Shown here: piece by piece, positions 28,791 to 59,511 of the stretch | Layout: each line of letters begins with the position of its first letter | Position numbering within the stretch: the first letter of the stretch is position 1 | Source: Flavisolibacter longurius | Lineage (GTDB): Bacteria; Bacteroidota; Bacteroidia; Chitinophagales; Chitinophagaceae | Direction of reading: 5' to 3' | NCBI GenBank assembly: GCA_014163555.1 | Contig: JACJGO010000002.1 | Location: 248,001-312,000 of the forward strand | Length of the DNA: 64,000 bases | Program-made: the position numbers and the translations under genes | Notes under the pieces: model-generated | Databases searched by the model: none | Seen by the model: the letters and a program-made list of their open reading frames with translations, nothing else | Told to the model about the DNA's origin: nothing

Positions 28791-28985
28791 GCGGATAGGT
28801 GAATATGCGGATGTGCGGATGAAGCGAAAGTTCTCTGAGCTTTGGGAGATTTGTTACATTACATTACTCTTCATTACATATCTATATAGTATAGATTGCT
28901 TCATTTCTTTTTCATGCATCTACATTTATTCAACCGGACAACTGCTTATTCGCCTTTCTGCATATCCGTATGTTCTCACATCCGC
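28791..28985. repeat. Imperfect inverted repeat of GCGGAT units around an A+T-rich core
   Basis: The arms 28791-28816 and 28960-28985 match at 20 of 26 positions in opposite orientation without gaps. They are built from degenerate GCGGAT/TGCGGAT units. The 143 bp between them are A+T-rich and hold no ORF. Confidence 0.55.
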
Positions 28986-29144: not shown

Positions 29145-31280
29145 ATGTCACTAATCCAGAAAATCAGAGACAAGTATGCCCGTGTAGCGGTTGTTGCCAT
29201 TGGATTGGCACTTTTGGGCTTTATCCTAATGGATGCTTTCGCCGGTGGCGGGGGCGGCCTTTTCGGCGGTCCGGATACCACCATTGGTAAGATCAACGGC
29301 GAGAAGATTGAAGCCGATGCCTTTATGCGCCGCGTATCCGAAATCACAAAGCGTCCCGGTTTTGAAGGTGAGAACGGAACCGCACAGGCGGTAAACGGCT
29401 TATGGCAGCAGGAAGTGACCAACCGGATCATGGGTGAGCAATACGAAGAGCTGGGCATTTCACTTACCGACCGTGAATTGGACCAGTTGCTTTTTGGCGC
29501 TAATCCTCCGCAGGAATTCCGCCAGGCTTTTGGCAATCCCAACGATCCGCAAAGCTGGGATCCCGGCCAGGTGCGCCAGCAATACAATCAGATCAAAAAA
29601 AGTGGTACCCCGGACCAGAAAGCGCAACTGAATGAACTGATTGAGTACATTGAGCAGCAGCAACTGATGAACAAGTACAATGCGCTTTTAACGAGCTCTG
29701 TGTACATTCCAAAATGGTTCTTGGAAAAACGCAATGTGGATAACAGCCAGATGGCGAATGGTGCTTTTGTTTCCGTACCGTATACTACCATTGCCGACAG
29801 CACAGTTAAAGTTACCGACGAGGATATCAATGCCTACGTAAAGGCGCATCAAAATGAATTTGAGCAGGACGAAGAAAGCCGCTCTATCAGCTATGTACAG
29901 TTTAGCGCTGCACCATCTGCTGCCGACAGCGCCCAGGTACGCAACCAGATGCTGCAACTGAAAGATTCTTTCCAGCGTTCCACCAACGCAAGAGAATTCC
30001 TGATTGCCAACCGCAGCCTGGCCCAATACAACGAAACCTATATCAGCAAGGAAGACCTGAACCTGCAGAACAAGGATTCGATCTTCAGTGCGCCGGTAGG
30101 TTCTGTAACCGGTCCGTTTGCCGAGCAGGAAAGCTATGTAATGGCCAAACTGCTGAACGCAAAAACACAGCCTGATACCGTAAAGGTTCGTCACATCCTG
30201 ATTGCCCTGCAGCCGCAGGATGCCGCCGGGCAGCCCCTGCCCGCCCGTGATTCGGTAGCGGCCAAGCGCCTTGCCGACAGTGTGCAGCAAGCTATAGCCG
30301 CCGGTGCCAATTTCGACAGCGTGGCGGTTCGCCTCTCTGATGATCTGGGCAGCAAATTCCGTGGTGGTGTGTACGACAGCATTACCCGCCAAACGCAGTT
30401 TGTTCCAGAGTTTAAAGACTTTGCCTTTAACAACCCAACGGGCAGCAAAGGCGTGGTAAAAACACAGTTTGGTTACCACTACATCGAGGTGCTTTCGCAA
30501 AGAGGCTCTTCTCCGGTTTACCAGGTAGCCTTTTATGTATTGCCGATCGAAGCCAGCCCGGAAACAGTGAGTGAGGCCAGCAACGCCGCCAATATGTTTG
30601 CCGGTAATACCAGCGATGAAAAAAGCTTCAACGAATATTTTGAAAAGAACCTGCGCGGCAAAGGCTTTACCAAAATGGTAGCGGCCAACCTGAAGCCAAT
30701 GGACTTTTTTGTAACAGGTCTGAACGGTTCGTCCCGCGAACTGGTAAAGGCTGTGTTTGAAGCCGACAAAGGCGATGTAGTGAGCCCCAGCCAGACCATC
30801 AACAACAGCTACATTGTAGCCGTGGTTACCGGTGTGGATAAAGCCGGTCTTCCATCTGCCGCCTCAGTACGTTCGATGATCGAGCCGATCCTGATCAACC
30901 GCAAAAAAGCAGATGTGATCAAAGGACAAATGGGTAAGGTTGCCGACCTGAATGCTGTGGCCACCAAATTCAACCAGCCGGTGCAACCCGTGGACAGCCT
31001 GCGCTTCAGTGGTGGTGGCCCCCTAGGTTATGAAGTAACCGTGATTGGTGCGCTGTTCAACCCAGCCAACAAAGGCAAGGTTTGTCCCGATCCGATTCCC
31101 GGCCAGGCTGGTGTATATGCCATTCGTACGGATGCCGTGTTTACCGGTGCCGTGGAAAATGCCAGCATCGAAGACCAGCGTCGCATGATGGAAATGCAGG
31201 CCCGCCAGATGTTCCGCTCTCCTGTGGAAGCCCTGCAAAAAAGAGCAGAAGTAAAAGACTTCCGCAGCAAGTTTTATTAA
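29145..31280 (+). CDS. PpiD/SurA-like periplasmic peptidyl-prolyl isomerase
   Basis: The 711-residue protein has a short cytoplasmic N-terminus (SLIQKIRDKYARV), one membrane helix at about 14-33, a SurA_N-like helical chaperone region (TIGKINGEKIEADAFMRRV) and parvulin domains, the first clearly marked by VKVRHILIALQP at about 345 and VAVRLSDDLGSKFRGG with QFGYHYIEV. It would assist folding of outer-membrane and secreted proteins at the inner membrane. Size and layout match Bacteroidota PpiD-type foldases. It has a well-formed promoter and a terminator. Confidence 0.92.
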   Translation: MSLIQKIRDKYARVAVVAIGLALLGFILMDAFAGGGGGLFGGPDTTIGKINGEKIEADAFMRRVSEITKRPGFEGENGTAQAVNGLWQQEVTNRIMGEQYEELGISLTDRELDQLLFGANPPQEFRQAFGNPNDPQSWDPGQVRQQYNQIKKSGTPDQKAQLNELIEYIEQQQLMNKYNALLTSSVYIPKWFLEKRNVDNSQMANGAFVSVPYTTIADSTVKVTDEDINAYVKAHQNEFEQDEESRSISYVQFSAAPSAADSAQVRNQMLQLKDSFQRSTNAREFLIANRSLAQYNETYISKEDLNLQNKDSIFSAPVGSVTGPFAEQESYVMAKLLNAKTQPDTVKVRHILIALQPQDAAGQPLPARDSVAAKRLADSVQQAIAAGANFDSVAVRLSDDLGSKFRGGVYDSITRQTQFVPEFKDFAFNNPTGSKGVVKTQFGYHYIEVLSQRGSSPVYQVAFYVLPIEASPETVSEASNAANMFAGNTSDEKSFNEYFEKNLRGKGFTKMVAANLKPMDFFVTGLNGSSRELVKAVFEADKGDVVSPSQTINNSYIVAVVTGVDKAGLPSAASVRSMIEPILINRKKADVIKGQMGKVADLNAVATKFNQPVQPVDSLRFSGGGPLGYEVTVIGALFNPANKGKVCPDPIPGQAGVYAIRTDAVFTGAVENASIEDQRRMMEMQARQMFRSPVEALQKRAEVKDFRSKFY

Positions 31281-31282
31281 TC

Positions 31283-31309
31283 GTGAGTGGTGAATGGTCA
31301 GTGGTGAGT
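31283..31309. repeat. Short degenerate GTGAGTGG/GTGAATGG repeat
   Basis: Degenerate units of the type GTGAGTGGTGAATGGTCAGT lie two bases after the foldase stop codon. A short opposite-strand relative (ATTCACCATTCAC) occurs at about 33071-33083. No local partner arm is present. Confidence 0.4.
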
Positions 31310-31343
31310 TCTTGCCACCTACCTACCAAATAAATGAAAAGAG

Positions 31344-37333: not shown

Positions 37334-37777
37334 ATGTCGTTTTTCAAAATATGGATTCATGCCGTATGGGGAACGAAAAATCGTATTCCCATTCTACAAA
37401 AAGAAAAAAGGGAATTACTTTTTCAACATATCAAAACCTATGCTTTGCAGAAAGAAATTTACGTGGATTGCATCGGTGGGTTTGATGATCATGTGCACTG
37501 CCTGTTTGAACTGCATGCAGAGATTTCGCTGGCAAAAACTATGCAATTGTTGAAAGGCGAATCATCACACTGGGCAAATCAACAGCTATTGTTTTCAGCA
37601 AAGCTGGATTGGGCAAATGAATACTTTGCCTGTTCGGTAAGCGAATCAGTGGTAGAGAAAGTAAGGGCCTATATCCAAAATCAGGAAGAACATCACAGGA
37701 AGATGACATTTGCGGAAGAATATGAACTTTTCCTACAGAAATATGACTTGCGAAGGGATAAACAGCGGCATCCATGA
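37334..37777 (+). CDS. REP-associated tyrosine transposase (IS200/IS605-like Y1)
   Basis: The 147-residue protein is a single-domain Y1 HUH transposase: the metal-binding motif DDHVHCLFEL (H53 and H55), WIHAVWGTKNR at the N-terminus and the catalytic Tyr likely at 113 (VEKVRAYIQNQEEHHRKMTF). IS200-type ends are not visible. Instead an array of perfect palindromes starts 60 bp downstream, the pattern of RAYT proteins, which act on REP sequences and are usually not ordinary mobile IS. All catalytic residues appear intact. Confidence 0.9.
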   Translation: MSFFKIWIHAVWGTKNRIPILQKEKRELLFQHIKTYALQKEIYVDCIGGFDDHVHCLFELHAEISLAKTMQLLKGESSHWANQQLLFSAKLDWANEYFACSVSESVVEKVRAYIQNQEEHHRKMTFAEEYELFLQKYDLRRDKQRHP

Positions 37778-42851: not shown

Positions 42852-42875
42852 GCGTATAATGTACAAATGTGATAT

Positions 42876-42928
42876 TATGAAAATGTGAAAATGAGGTTTA
42901 GTCTTTGAATCATTTTCACATTTTCATA
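42876..42928. repeat. Perfect 19-bp inverted repeat of TGAAAATG units (S23-element relative)
   Basis: Arms 42876-42894 and 42910-42928 pair perfectly around a 15-nt loop. The right arm with its continuation to the gcvT stop (GCTAATTTTCAAATTAAG) aligns almost base for base with the complement of the 58575-58610 arm of the four-helix-bundle element. Confidence 0.8.
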
Positions 42929-42944
42929 TTTGCTAATTTTCAAA

Positions 42945-54518: not shown

Positions 54519-54525
54519 GTCAACA

Positions 54526-54610
54526 AGCAATAAACAATACGCAATAGGCAAAGAAGAATCGAACTCTTCTTTGCCTATTTTCTTTTCCACCTTGCCCATT
54601 GTCAATTGCT
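54526..54610. repeat. Nested inverted repeat of GCAATA units containing the rho terminator
   Basis: Outer arms 54526-54544 and 54592-54610 pair at 15 of 19 positions. Inside, AATAGGCAAAGAAGA at 54543-54557 pairs perfectly with 54565-54579 and is followed by TTTCTTTT, so it is an intrinsic terminator for rho. Units resemble those inside selU. Confidence 0.75.
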
Positions 54611-55375: not shown

Positions 55376-56491
55376 ATGCGCAGAGTTTCCATCAATGAGT
55401 TTCTGGCGGCAGGGCGAAATGCCCTGCTGATCGATGTGCGGTCGCCTTCGGAATACAACCATGCGCACCTGCCCGGCGCCGTTAATCTGCCGCTATTCAG
55501 CGATGCTGAAAGGGCAGTGGTGGGCACCCAATACAAACAGGTAAGCCGGCAGGCCGCCATTAAAATCGGCCTCGATTATTTTGGCCCGAAGATGCGGCAG
55601 ATGGTGGAGGAAGTGGAAAAATTAATAGACAATAAGCAATCGGCAACAGGCAATAATGATGATGGTCAATTGCCAATTGCTGATTGCATATTTCTTTACT
55701 GCTGGCGTGGTGGCATGCGCAGCGGTGCCGTAGCCTGGTTGCTGAATCTTTATGGATTTGATGTAACCGTGCTGGCCGGCGGCTACAAAGCATTCCGGCA
55801 TTGGGTTCTGCAAACAAACGGGTATCCATTTCCGTTGAAGTTGATTGGTGGTTATACAGGTTCGGGTAAAACCGCTTTGTTGAAAGAGTTGGCCCGCAAA
55901 GGCGAACCCATCATCGACCTGGAAGCACTGGCCAAACACAAAGGATCTGCTTTTGGAAGTATCGGCATGCCATTGCAGCCTTCGCAGGAAATGTTTGAAA
56001 ACCGCCTGGCATTAACACTTGCGGATAGGTACGCTGAAATAAAGGCAGAAAAAGGTAACAAGGGAATGAATATGCCACCACAGGCAATCTGGATCGAAGA
56101 CGAAAGCCAGCGGATTGGCCATGTCAACATTCCGCAATCTTTTTGGCAGAAAATGCGCCGCTCACCTGTTTATTTTTTAGACATTCCTTTTGAAGAACGC
56201 TTGCAGAACATCGTTGCCGATTACGGTGACCTGGATAAAGACCGCATGATTGCCGCCATTCAACGGATTGCCAAACGACTGGGTCCGCTGGAAACCAAAA
56301 ATGCCGTCCGCTTTTTGGAAGAAGGCAACATCAAAGAAAGCTTCCGCATTTTATTGCAATATTACGATAAACAGTACCGTAAGGGTTTGCACAACCGGCA
56401 GAACCTTGATCAACTCCTAATAACCATTTCCTGCGAAAACGTTAGTGTAACCAATGCTGCCCTACTTTCGCAGGCTCAACTTGTTTCCTGA
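55376..56491 (+). CDS. selU: tRNA 2-selenouridine synthase (SelU/MnmH) with in-frame repeat insert
   Basis: SelU replaces sulfur by selenium in 2-thiouridine 34 of tRNA, using selenophosphate and a geranylated intermediate. The ATG at 55376 gives 371 residues: a rhodanese domain (LIDVRSPSEYNHAHLPGAVN, catalytic Cys109 in YCWRGGMRSG) and a P-loop domain (GGYTGSGKT, 158-166). Residues about 85-104 (NKQSATGNNDDGQLPIADC) lie between two landmarks that are normally close, and their DNA is an inverted repeat of the type found downstream of rho. It adds one extra Cys (104). selD begins right after the stop, so they form an operon. Confidence 0.94.
   Translation: MRRVSINEFLAAGRNALLIDVRSPSEYNHAHLPGAVNLPLFSDAERAVVGTQYKQVSRQAAIKIGLDYFGPKMRQMVEEVEKLIDNKQSATGNNDDGQLPIADCIFLYCWRGGMRSGAVAWLLNLYGFDVTVLAGGYKAFRHWVLQTNGYPFPLKLIGGYTGSGKTALLKELARKGEPIIDLEALAKHKGSAFGSIGMPLQPSQEMFENRLALTLADRYAEIKAEKGNKGMNMPPQAIWIEDESQRIGHVNIPQSFWQKMRRSPVYFLDIPFEERLQNIVADYGDLDKDRMIAAIQRIAKRLGPLETKNAVRFLEEGNIKESFRILLQYYDKQYRKGLHNRQNLDQLLITISCENVSVTNAALLSQAQLVS
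55629..55687. repeat. GCAATA-type inverted repeat inside selU
   Basis: Arms 55629-55651 and 55665-55687 pair at 17 of 23 positions around a 13-nt loop, sharing the core AGCAATnGGCAA. It preserves the reading frame and contains no stop in that frame. Confidence 0.7.
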
Positions 56492-57576: not shown

Positions 57577-58332
57577 TTAATTCAATGGTATAAATTCTGA
57601 CCAGTTCATATTTTCATCAAGTTGGCAGCGACTGAATTCAATATGAATCACCCGCCGCCTGCTATAATTGGTTGTTCGGTTGGATGCGTGAAACAGCAAC
57701 GGTTTCATGAACATAACACCACCTTTGGATACAGCGCAAATAGTCTCCTGCTCTGTTTTCCAGTCAATATTTTCTGCCCGGTAGATCCCTTTTTTGTGCG
57801 ACTGCGGAATCACTTTCAGGGCGCCATTTTCTTCAGTGGTATCATCAAGATGAATGCGGATTGTAAAATTATCTTCCAAAATGCCAGGCGGTGGCTGAAC
57901 AGCAAACTGGCCTTCTTTTTTTGTCCAGGGACCGTACCCTTCACAGTCAATTTTTTTATCGACGGAAATTGTCAGGTCCTGATGATAAGAAACAAACCAG
58001 TTAGAATTTCCGGGTTTATCAAAATAGATTGACTTCACAATAAAATAGTCATCGCCAAATACTGCAGAAACAAGTTGGGTGAGTTTTTGATTCAGAACCA
58101 ACTTTCGTGTAGCAGGAATCTCTTTGAAAAATTGCCGGATAGCAAACAGGTCTTCAGATTTCCGGAACGTTGGGCCTGTGTTGTCGGCTTCAGCTATAGC
58201 TGATAGAATTTGGGAAACTTCTTCAGTGGAATAAATGCCGTTGACTATTGCAAAGCCTTCGTGAAAGATTTTTTCTTTCACTGTATCGGGTACAACCATA
58301 AAATTTTTTGAAAATAAAAAGCGCTGCTCCAT
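57577..58332 (-). CDS. Phytanoyl-CoA dioxygenase (PhyH) family protein
   Basis: The 251 residues carry the iron triad of PhyH enzymes: H117 and D119 in SYHQDLTI, and H215 in PLLFHASNRT followed by RRRVIHIEFS, which supplies the 2-oxoglutarate Arg. It is a mononuclear Fe(II)/2-oxoglutarate oxygenase; the substrate is unknown. It starts 5 nt after the pterin dehydratase stop, so both are in one operon. That pairing may be incidental because PhyH enzymes do not use pterins. Confidence 0.88.
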   Translation of the reverse strand: MEQRFLFSKNFMVVPDTVKEKIFHEGFAIVNGIYSTEEVSQILSAIAEADNTGPTFRKSEDLFAIRQFFKEIPATRKLVLNQKLTQLVSAVFGDDYFIVKSIYFDKPGNSNWFVSYHQDLTISVDKKIDCEGYGPWTKKEGQFAVQPPPGILEDNFTIRIHLDDTTEENGALKVIPQSHKKGIYRAENIDWKTEQETICAVSKGGVMFMKPLLFHASNRTTNYSRRRVIHIEFSRCQLDENMNWSEFIPLN

Positions 58333-58337
58333 ACCTG

Positions 58338-58568
58338 TTAAAGCAGGCTATCAATTTTATCCGCCAGCTTTCTGTCCTTATCGGTAACCACGTTGCCGGC
58401 ATCGTGTGTATTCAACCAAACTTCTACCGTATTCCAAACATTGGTCCACCGCGGATGATGATTCATCTTTTCGGCAATCATTGCCACTCTTGTCATAAAT
58501 GCAAAGGCTTCACTGAAATCCTTAAACTCAAATTTTCGGTACAGTGCGTTGTCTTTTTCCTGCCACAT
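58338..58568 (-). CDS. 4a-hydroxytetrahydrobiopterin dehydratase (PCD)
   Basis: The 76-residue protein is a short but complete pterin-carbinolamine dehydratase: [20 protein letters not shown] then [20 protein letters not shown] with the conserved His pair and Pro, and the end [13 protein letters not shown]. It recycles 4a-hydroxy-pterin formed by aromatic amino-acid hydroxylases. No hydroxylase gene is adjacent. Its start codon lies 6 nt from the left arm of the S23 element, so that insertion may separate it from its former promoter. Confidence 0.9.
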
Positions 58569-58574
58569 GGTGCT

Positions 58575-59063
58575 AATTTGAAAATGAGAAAATTTGAAAA
58601 TTTGAAAATGAAAGAACAGCTTTATTTATTCAGCCTGGACTTAGTGGTTGCCAAAATCTTACCAAGGAGTTTATGAATTTCTTCCAGCTTAAAAAGAATT
58701 TCATCACAAACGGGATACCGGTTCGAATACTTGCACAGCGTTAGCCAATATTGTGTTTCTTCCGCTTCCTTCGCTGCTATCTTCATTTTGTGAATGAAGT
58801 CAGGCCTGCTTTCTGCATTCTGCGCTTCCATGATGTTTGCGCCAACAGATGTTCCGGATTTTAGTAGTTGATTTGAGATTACAAATCGTTTCTGCTCCTG
58901 AAGCAGCTCACAGTAATCAATCACCATCAATGCCAACTCAAAGCTGTGTTTCAATACTGGGTTTTTTTCAATAAGCTCTTTGTGCATGTTGTATGTTTTG
59001 GTTGTTAGAAGTTACTACTATCCAAACCATTTTCACATTTTCATATTTTCACATTTCCTAATT
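58575..59063. mobile_element. S23 four-helix-bundle element with 36-bp inverted ends
   Basis: The arms 58575-58610 and 59028-59063 are inverted copies matching at 31 of 36 positions in perfect register. They are built from degenerate TGAAAATG/TGAAAATT units and enclose only the four-helix-bundle gene. The right arm starts within the stop codon of the IPExxxVDY gene; the left arm ends 6 nt from the dehydratase start. Confidence 0.7.
58622..58987 (-). CDS. Four-helix-bundle protein, S23/IVS family
   Basis: The 121-residue protein has the S23 family features: [20 protein letters not shown] at the N-terminus, [20 protein letters not shown] with the conserved Gly-Thr-Ser-Val-Gly-Ala-Asn-Ile turn, and [17 protein letters not shown]. 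Homologues are encoded by intervening sequences of 23S rRNA genes, whose ends pair with each other, and are related to Avd proteins of diversity-generating retroelements. The function is unknown; a nucleic-acid-binding role is assumed. Here the gene lies far from rRNA but inside matching inverted repeats. Confidence 0.92.
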
Positions 59064-59496
59064 AAAACACCAAATGCTCTTTGTTCTTGATCTTCTCATT
59101 CGTCAGCTCCACCACAAGTTGCACGCCGTTGATGCATTTGAGTGAATAAATCAGGTTGTCCACAAATTCATTTGAAACAAAATCCTCTTTCAGCAACCAT
59201 AAAAAATCAAGATGCTTGAATTCCGGTAAAAGATATTCGCCGTCGTGTTGATTGTTATAGAGGTAGTGCATCAGGCAGGATGACGGCTGCGCATATTCAT
59301 ACACAGAGAAAAAATACTTCCGGCTTTTTTTATTGAGCTGAATTTCCAACTCCGGGTTCATCCTGAAGTCAACACCCATCAACTGGTTTACCTGCCAGCA
59401 GAACATGTAGTCTTTGATCGGGGCCATAATGCCCAACAGCCTGGCATCTTCAAAGAAGCCATCCGTCATCTCCTTGTTGTCGAGTGTCAGTTTCAT
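59062..59496 (-). CDS. IPExxxVDY-family protein
   Basis: The 144-residue protein matches the Bacteroidota family named for a motif, here degenerate: FFEDARLLGIMAPIKDYMFCWQVNQ, then LMGVDFRMNPELEIQL and YFFSVYEYAQ. The function is unknown. The gene lies 15 nt downstream of the M28 peptidase gene, so they are probably co-transcribed. Its TAA stop forms the outer edge of the S23 element's right arm. Confidence 0.85.
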   Translation of the reverse strand: MKLTLDNKEMTDGFFEDARLLGIMAPIKDYMFCWQVNQLMGVDFRMNPELEIQLNKKSRKYFFSVYEYAQPSSCLMHYLYNNQHDGEYLLPEFKHLDFLWLLKEDFVSNEFVDNLIYSLKCINGVQLVVELTNEKIKNKEHLVF

Positions 59497-59511
59497 GTTG
59501 CACCAGTTAAG

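Follow-up and report, generated by a model that had tools for sequence, protein, structure and literature searches.

This locus raises the question of why a lone gene of the S23/IVP family, in a layout like that of the intervening sequences (IVSs) of 23S rRNA, should lie between two protein genes and within a pair of inverted repeats, and of what kind of element this arrangement represents. The window—that is, the whole stretch of 64,000 nucleotides that was analysed (G000:C21:248001-312000)—belongs to a draft genome of 5.66 Mb (G000), and a first-pass annotation had proposed that a small mobile or RNA-pairing element carries the S23 gene. The features involved are the following:

58622..58987, minus strand: S23 / 23S rRNA IVP four-helix-bundle gene (121 aa; PF05635, TIGR02436), the sole cargo
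59028..59063, minus strand: 5' arm in the S23 sense, octamer array AATTAGGAAATGTGAAAATATGAAAATGTGAAAATG with an outer edge at the upstream gene's stop codon
58575..58610, minus strand: 3' arm, inverted copy of the octamer array of the 5' arm, 31/36 complementary, 6 nt from the next start codon
59062..59496, minus strand: IPExxxVDY family gene, upstream neighbour (NF033205, 103 bits); its stop at 59062-59064 overlaps the 5' arm
58338..58568, minus strand: pterin-4a-carbinolamine dehydratase gene (PF01329), downstream neighbour; ATG at 58566-58568
42866..42941, no strand assigned: S23-less octamer hairpin at the gcvT stop, arms 42866-42895 and 42910-42941, 14-nt loop
42945-44033: gcvT, whose stop codon is abutted by the S23-less hairpin of the window's unit

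Of 36 positions, 31 pair between the two arms in an ungapped alignment, and nothing but the S23 gene lies between them, so the recount bears out the 36-bp inverted arms that had been described. Within the whole 64-kb window, at spacings of up to 700 bp, no rival 36-mer inverted pair reaches 31/36 (the two listed hits being one pair shifted by one register), and three shuffled windows contained none of at least 31/36 at these spacings. The protein is a member of the S23/IVP family by profile scores above the curated cut-offs of PF05635 (81.1 bits; cut-off 33.8) and TIGR02436 (91 bits; cut-off 24). PF05635 is the only Pfam match inside the element, where the gene fills the space between the arms, and nothing in Rfam matched in 58300-59500. 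The reported insertion at the stop codon of one gene and 6 nt before the start of the next agrees with the stop overlap and the ATG listed above, and the IVS-like layout is indeed found outside rRNA, between the IPExxxVDY and the dehydratase genes. Both arms are arrays of GAAAATNT-like octamer units, a unit structure that had gone unnamed in the earlier annotation. The element of the window is approximately 0.4–0.5 kb in size, with a single gene between two inverted arms. An AATTAG direct repeat stands at both of its outer edges, and may either belong to the arms or stem from a target duplication. As for the arm reported near gcvT, the place is real, but it holds a pair of arms, which form a hairpin, rather than a lone one.

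Genes of this family are common in the genus, with 179 matches distributed over 17 of its 18 genomes (3–18 per genome); the family search left G005 (~7 Mb, 100% complete) without a match. A total of 146 genus S23 genes, among the matches listed (all but 28 of these 179), were tested for arms. The score was that of the best local alignment of one 300-bp flank with the reverse complement of the other flank. The first set comprised 80 places hand-picked from the upper list, mostly avoiding contig starts, plus the window copy (81). Because this choice was unsystematic, a second set was added, formed by the remaining 69 listed places and one match below the cut-off from the window's own genome; 65 of these were usable, and five were dropped due to flanks that were too short.

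In the first set, the median arm score was 22 around S23 genes, compared with 11 for controls and 11 for mismatched flanks. Scores of at least 14 were reached by 78 of the 81 genes, as opposed to 12% of 1181 control positions (drawn from the S23 loci themselves) and 18% of 957 mismatched S23 flank pairs, and scores of at least 18 by 63 of the 81, as opposed to 1% and 3%, respectively. First-set flanks compared in direct orientation exhibited no excess match. In the second set, 54 of 65 genes scored at least 14 (28/30 among family matches of at least 60 bits, 26/34 among those of 34–60 bits, and 0/1 below) and 49 of 65 scored at least 18. Pooling both sets gives 132/146 at the lower threshold and 112/146 at the higher one. 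Arms are therefore not scattered without a link to S23 genes, an outcome that the first-pass annotation would have counted against itself, though S23-less arrays are common.

The 14 S23 genes of the 146 that fell below the arm threshold are commoner among the weaker family matches (8/34 at 34–60 bits). In the first set, those scoring less than 14 were L082 (with a stop in the gene), L130, and L150, and the window's own genome has arms around 9 of its 11 tested S23 genes, the exceptions being L130 and L423. L130 (G000:C57:32142-32429) is an armless S23 gene whose site is occupied in G014 by an armed one (L106), with no protein-level match between them. Armless genes such as L399, L401, L402, L406, L410, and L420, among others, are commoner among PF05635 matches of 42–50 bits, and some of these weak-scoring genes may constitute a resident, non-mobile subfamily.

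With regard to architecture, the best period was 7 or 8 in 73 of the 78 armed first-set elements, and among shifts of 3–15 the identity within first-set arms was raised at 7, 8, and 14. Arms hold a median of 4.4 units (interquartile range 3.9–5.1; 143 arms), unit sequences vary between elements, and the C content of the 5' arm in the S23 sense is 10%.

Arm sequence and unit length track the lineage of the S23 protein, in one fixed orientation. In first-set elements from different sites, arms were common to 30 of 37 pairs (81%) whose S23 proteins match at 140 bits or more (mean identity 71%), to 26% of 96 pairs at 110–140 bits, to 9% of 194 pairs at 80–110 bits, and to 1–2% of 2643 pairs below 80 bits (likewise 1–2% of 1722 pairs below 50 bits), these being counts of pairs that share history and hence are not independent. 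Arm sharing in the opposite orientation stayed at background level, and the unit period coincided in 96% of 128 close pairs versus 56–61% of the others. Starting from the window's element, the unit drifts along the S23 relatives (protein identity in brackets) to GAAAATGT (81%), GCAAATGT (62%), and GCTAATGT (57 and 53%), and, in more distant relatives, to GGTAATGC (44%), GGTAATGG (42%), and ATTAATAA (41%). Two elements with 50% identical S23 proteins lie off this trend: L201 (TTTTAAAT-like, 8 bp) and L203 (AATGGAG-like, 7 bp).

Substitution patterns indicate purifying selection on S23. Of 30 close genus pairs, 25 combine saturated synonymous sites with a conserved protein, which argues that arms that can still be aligned are probably under constraint; the five pairs with measurable dS have dN/dS values of 0.03–0.09. 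Values of 0.10–0.15 were obtained for five of six plasmid pairs, and one near 0.9 for a near-identical pair with very few changes.

The junction occupied in the window was compared with its counterparts through 30 IPExxxVDY loci, out of 34 matching places, from the window's genome and its relatives. A dehydratase gene is found beside IPExxxVDY in 19 of them, the window's included, and the remaining 11 were set aside. The junction is S23-free in 16 of the 19, so that most relatives do not hold an S23 gene at this place without repeats, the second outcome that would have told against the original proposal. S23 is present in only three: G000 (the window), G008, with an S23 protein 81% identical to the window's and the same arms, and G006, where a decayed fragment with four stops remains between its arms. 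Other small palindromes were judged by eye to be present at some of the S23-free junctions.

The precise empty sites that mobility was expected to leave were found between near-identical cyanobacterial plasmids, while the relatives at the window's own site are too diverged to read. The element L325 on Trichormus plasmid C is missing from six plasmid records (H39–H44) that match at 97.3–98.0%, the stretch measuring 1801 bp when filled and 1373 bp when empty. In the two of the six empty records that were fetched, the site reads AAAAAGTAATTAACAAATA, compared with AAAAAGTAAT-element-GTAATTAACAAATA when filled; the edges are exact, and their comparison places GTAAT on both sides. Neither the gene nor the arms are present in these empty sites, at ~98% identity. 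The same insertion occurs in Scytonema (L326), with a 5' arm shorter by 14 bp (two heptads), and as a truncated copy on a Nostoc plasmid (L338). In another operon, L331 lies at one gene junction of a Nostoc plasmid and the L350 of its sister plasmid, with other arms, at the next junction; here the empty sequence GAGGTAATGGGATTT becomes GAGGTAATG-element-ATGGGATTT, with the overlap ATG. Five further plasmid sites were examined (L331, L336, L334, L333, and L332), and at the L332 site a sister plasmid has an insert (L352) with a related unit and without an annotated S23 gene. A target duplication is clear at one site (GTAAT) and comprises three letters at the second, and at the five further sites the flanks are too diverged or changed to read one.

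Unrelated elements can also occupy one and the same site in different species. At one of them the S23 elements of G014 and G006 are 74% identical and that of G000 is unrelated (24%), with unrelated arms; at another, those of G014 and G008 are 68% identical, versus 30–39% for that of G000, and the arms are likewise unrelated. At the compared sites the S23 gene and its arms are gained or lost jointly, and whole elements are found in different places. Although no act of transposition was observed, we regard it as very probable that this is a mobile element, with the gene and its cognate arms as the moving unit. The mobile part of the original proposal is thus supported by the empty sites and the linkage of S23 to its arms.

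The arrangement extends beyond the genus. Among the best 80 named S23 loci of a pattern scan, of which 79 had enough flank, arm scores of at least 14 were reached by 72 of 79 (compared with 13% of 578 controls and 27% of 780 mismatched pairs) and scores of at least 18 by 55 of 79 (compared with 3% and 8%); the direct orientation was also raised (39% at 14 or more), below the inverted one. Going by record titles as deposited, the armed loci include Patescibacteria, Verrucomicrobiales, Acidobacteria, Desulfosarcina and relatives, Anaerolineaceae, and an ANME-1 archaeon (L283); a 'Bifidobacterium' bin (L232) is probably misbinned. One query identified 15 plasmid records with S23, all cyanobacterial, and arms scoring at least 18 were present in 11 of the 12 plasmid loci fetched, L329 being the one without. 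Arms resembling GGAGTCA are found both in Bacteroidota (L095, L087) and on cyanobacterial plasmids (L325, L331, L336), with 60–72% identity between the S23 proteins and arm scores of 12–19. Of 29 cross-phylum pairs matching at 120 bits or more, 7 share arms, versus 1–3% of the others, a figure that is only indicative given the coarse phylum labels, which treat L232 and several names within Patescibacteria as phyla of their own. A search of phage records with one query protein (E 1e-5) gave no S23 match. Two of the plasmid elements lie among CRISPR-Cas genes: L327 (Pseudanabaena plasmid), with very long arrays, between cas6 and cas4, and L333 (Picosynechococcus PCC 7003) between cmr2 and cmr3, the latter being absent from the PCC 7002 plasmid (L351).

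How such an element might move is suggested by the oligomeric state of the family. Each of the solved S23 relatives 2rld and 2gsc (PDB) has five chains in its entry, and the Xanthomonas S23 protein is a homopentamer according to PMC4990558; with pentameric relatives, a ring that reads four to five units along one strand becomes a natural proposal. Each S23 pentameric ring would recognise its own unit on a single strand of an arm, at roughly one unit for each subunit; as the median of 4.4 units comes with a spread and is not sharply five, one unit per subunit is only compatible with the data. The protein would bring both ends together as a folded single strand (a DNA hairpin or RNA) and would so specify which arms are moved, whereas the cutting and joining chemistry would be either an unrecognised activity of S23 or that of a host enzyme recruited by it. 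That the S23 protein acts on its own arms seems to us rather probable; that it also performs the chemistry is unlikely.

The element could instead be mobile with S23 as a passenger or tolerance factor, being moved in trans by a host enzyme such as a Y1/RAYT transposase or a DGR-like reverse transcriptase, which we consider a real, if doubtful, possibility. We know of no catalytic motif in S23, Y1 transposase genes are present in 14 of the 18 genus genomes, and the complete genome G005, the sole one free of S23, is also without Y1. PF05635 proteins are moreover resembled in sequence and structure by the DGR protein Avd, as stated in PMC10053308. Reverse transcriptase matches, however, occur in only 6 of the 18 genomes (including G000, elsewhere, on C20), and none was found in G001, G006, G008, G010, G011, and G012, which hold 8–18 S23 matches each (two of these genomes are 62–78% complete), for which reason reverse transcriptase was rejected as a generally required helper. 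Y1 was not found in the S23-bearing G004, G007, and G010 either, but these are 62–84% complete. The Y1 genes of the genus have palindromes of their own, of another make than the S23 arms (19 of 28 tested scoring at least 18), and Y1/RAYT was thus rejected as the owner of the arms. Purifying selection on S23, together with arms that can be predicted from the S23 sequence, would not be needed for a passenger. The window itself holds a Y1/RAYT-type transposase gene at 37340-37684, plus strand (G000:C21:285340-285684), whose 300-bp flanks have a weak inverted match (L182, score 12).

A non-mobile RNA device, in which the arms pair in the mRNA and S23 binds the stem as a regulatory or processing hairpin, comparable to the RNase III-processed IVS, is a quite unlikely alternative, whose support includes the orientation of the elements. 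Taking as frames open frames of at least 100 codons, not gene-called, and leaving out L097, 66 of 77 first-set elements have a co-directional frame whose stop lies no more than 60 nt from the outer edge of the 5' arm, and 31 of 77 have a convergent frame that stops equally close to that of the 3' arm; frames stand only on the 5' side in 43, only on the 3' side in 8, and on neither in 3. Most elements directly follow a stop codon and point the same way as the upstream frame, which allows S23 to be read from the upstream message. The stop codons near the arms are mixed (TGA 33, TAG 28, and TAA 22), and a TAA target motif was rejected. The transcript of the window element is predicted to fold with the arms as its outer stem (z = -2.5), and the Coxiella IVS (428 nt) is described in PMC4990558 as cut out by RNase III, with GACAGAT heptameric direct repeats before the S23p ORF, the first of them being where RNase III has its site. 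Nevertheless, mismatches that still allow a G-U pair in the sense transcript are not in significant excess (158 vs. 131, p = 0.13), and the empty sites and the unrelated elements at the same site require movement. As for the RNA-pairing half of the original proposal, the arms would pair in the transcript, but the test for selection on such pairing was not significant; RNA processing could be a second role of the arms of the mobile element.

Copies of the arms that hold no gene are frequent, and they bring up a third alternative, namely that the arrays form an older and distinct class of intergenic repeats into which S23 genes merely prefer to insert. Outside S23 genes, in 650 kb around S23 loci, there are 15 S23-less arm pairs (two sharing one arm) and 101 array regions, compared with no arm pair and one array region after shuffling. 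A search for three consecutive window units, allowing at most two mismatches, gave 33 matches in G000, 60 in G008, and 27 in G006—the genomes with the window's S23 at the junction, the G006 copy being fragmentary—and 0–8 in the 15 other genomes, while the reversed pattern, used as control, gave 0–1 per strand and genome. A second unit, GTTTGGN, gave 248, 198, 115, 115, and 66 matches in five genomes with S23 at least 69% identical to that of L151, and 84 (G000), 82 (G005), 60, 53, 22, 18, 7, 1, 1, 0, 0, 0, and 0 in 13 others, against a high reversed-pattern control (0–123 per genome), probably because the reversed pattern matches similar heptads. Dispersed cognate palindromes in the carrier genomes are accordingly present for the window's unit and weaker for the second one.

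Many of these copies appear to be old, since 5 of 12 G000 unit loci (L001, L003, L005, L320, and L323) match in their flanks a fetched G008 or G006 locus, in a comparison that covered part of the places in these two genomes; the other seven have no flank match, apart from short ones (46–79 bp) of L006 to two G006 loci. At L003 (1234-1590; G000:C43), two S23-less hairpins of the window's unit surround a conserved stretch of ~170 bp, which is 84–89% identical to L296 (G008) and L314 (G006). In the window, lone 7- or 8-bp arrays of other units, unpaired at the threshold, are found at 28793-28822, 31279-31310 (GTGAGTG-like), 54520-54552, and 55661-55694. G005, with neither S23 nor Y1, has 82 GTTTGGN and 8 window-unit matches, either orphan arrays or another system; arrays can thus exist or persist without a detectable S23 gene. 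These arrays, together with the S23-less pairs and regions and the small palindromes seen by eye at some S23-free junctions, fit an older repeat class. Such a class would not explain why the S23 protein predicts the sequence and orientation of its arms, or why the ~98% identical empty sites are without gene and arms alike, and we hold it to be very unlikely. Finally, chance in ordinary AT-rich intergenic sequence, to which the low complexity of the arms might point (30 of the 36 positions of 58575-58610 are A or T), is a negligible explanation, refuted by the control positions, the mismatched flanks, the shuffles, and the reversed patterns of the window's unit. On the whole, a mobile S23 element with cognate arms is probably the best explanation of the locus.

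Among known systems, the nearest to this mobile S23 element is the IVS of 23S rRNA, as known from Coxiella and Leptospira, which likewise consists of a lone S23 ORF between pairing ends, with a similar size. Unlike IVSs, the window's element lies between protein genes and outside rRNA, a genome can have as many as 18 S23 matches with differing arms, both arms are unit arrays, and there are empty sites and S23-less copies. In its logic, the element is closer to REP/RAYT systems, where a gene is flanked by inverted palindromes tagged with GTAG/CGTC, with dispersed cognates. Inverted arms around a gene, dispersed gene-less cognate arms, and a gene lineage that predicts its arms are common to both. 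Nevertheless, the S23 element holds no Y1/HUH transposase, its arms are 7/8-bp tandem units instead of GTAG/CGTC-tagged palindromes, and the true Y1 genes of the genus have palindromes other than the S23 arms. MITEs and insertion sequences resemble it in their inverted ends, in the short target duplication at one site, and in the truncated and gene-less copies (L338, L352), but there is no known transposase or recognisable autonomous partner here; and, unlike DGRs, the S23 element is without reverse transcriptase, TR, or VR.

Mobility of IVSs was proposed earlier, and the Coxiella IVS has been called a selfish element, in PMC4990558, where S23/IVP proteins are said to have no known function. 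IVP genes have also been reported at scattered rRNA sites of CPR bacteria (PMC11270868). Intergenic arrays of tandem heptamers similar to the S23 arms—GGGAATC in Xanthomonas, some of them as inverted pairs, GGGGA(C/T)T in Nostoc, and TAACTGA in Beggiatoaceae—are described in PMC4692102 and PMC4679880, whose main texts gave no hits for the terms S23 and four helix. As compared through these published descriptions, the reported arrays are hypothesised to be linked to S23 elements. Among the papers listed from the open-licence PMC literature, which does not comprise preprints, none was found to connect S23 genes with heptad or octad arms outside rRNA; a genome-wide non-rRNA element, arms made of units, a correspondence between arms and S23 lineage, and gene-less copies were not found in the literature searched.

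A bolder extension, tentative and rather doubtful as a whole, would be that S23 elements form a class of mobile elements that spans phyla and extends to at least one lineage of archaea. In this class, a pentameric four-helix ring would read a code of heptads or octads on single-stranded ends, with one unit for each subunit, and would drive a chemistry of transposition that has not been described. The IVSs of 23S rRNA would then be the rRNA-borne members of this class, and the unexplained heptamer arrays its gene-less debris.

Taken together, these observations point to a widespread, little-recognised kind of mobile DNA. They suggest a testable function for S23/IVP proteins, namely that each recognises the 7- or 8-bp unit found on either side of its own gene, and a possible origin for the intergenic heptamer arrays of other bacteria, which were reported without a mechanism. 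They would also account for the presence of S23/IVP genes within CRISPR-Cas operons, as in L327 and L333 and as reported in PMC3936711, and would provide, besides REP/RAYT, a second and independent case of a cognate gene with dispersed palindromes.
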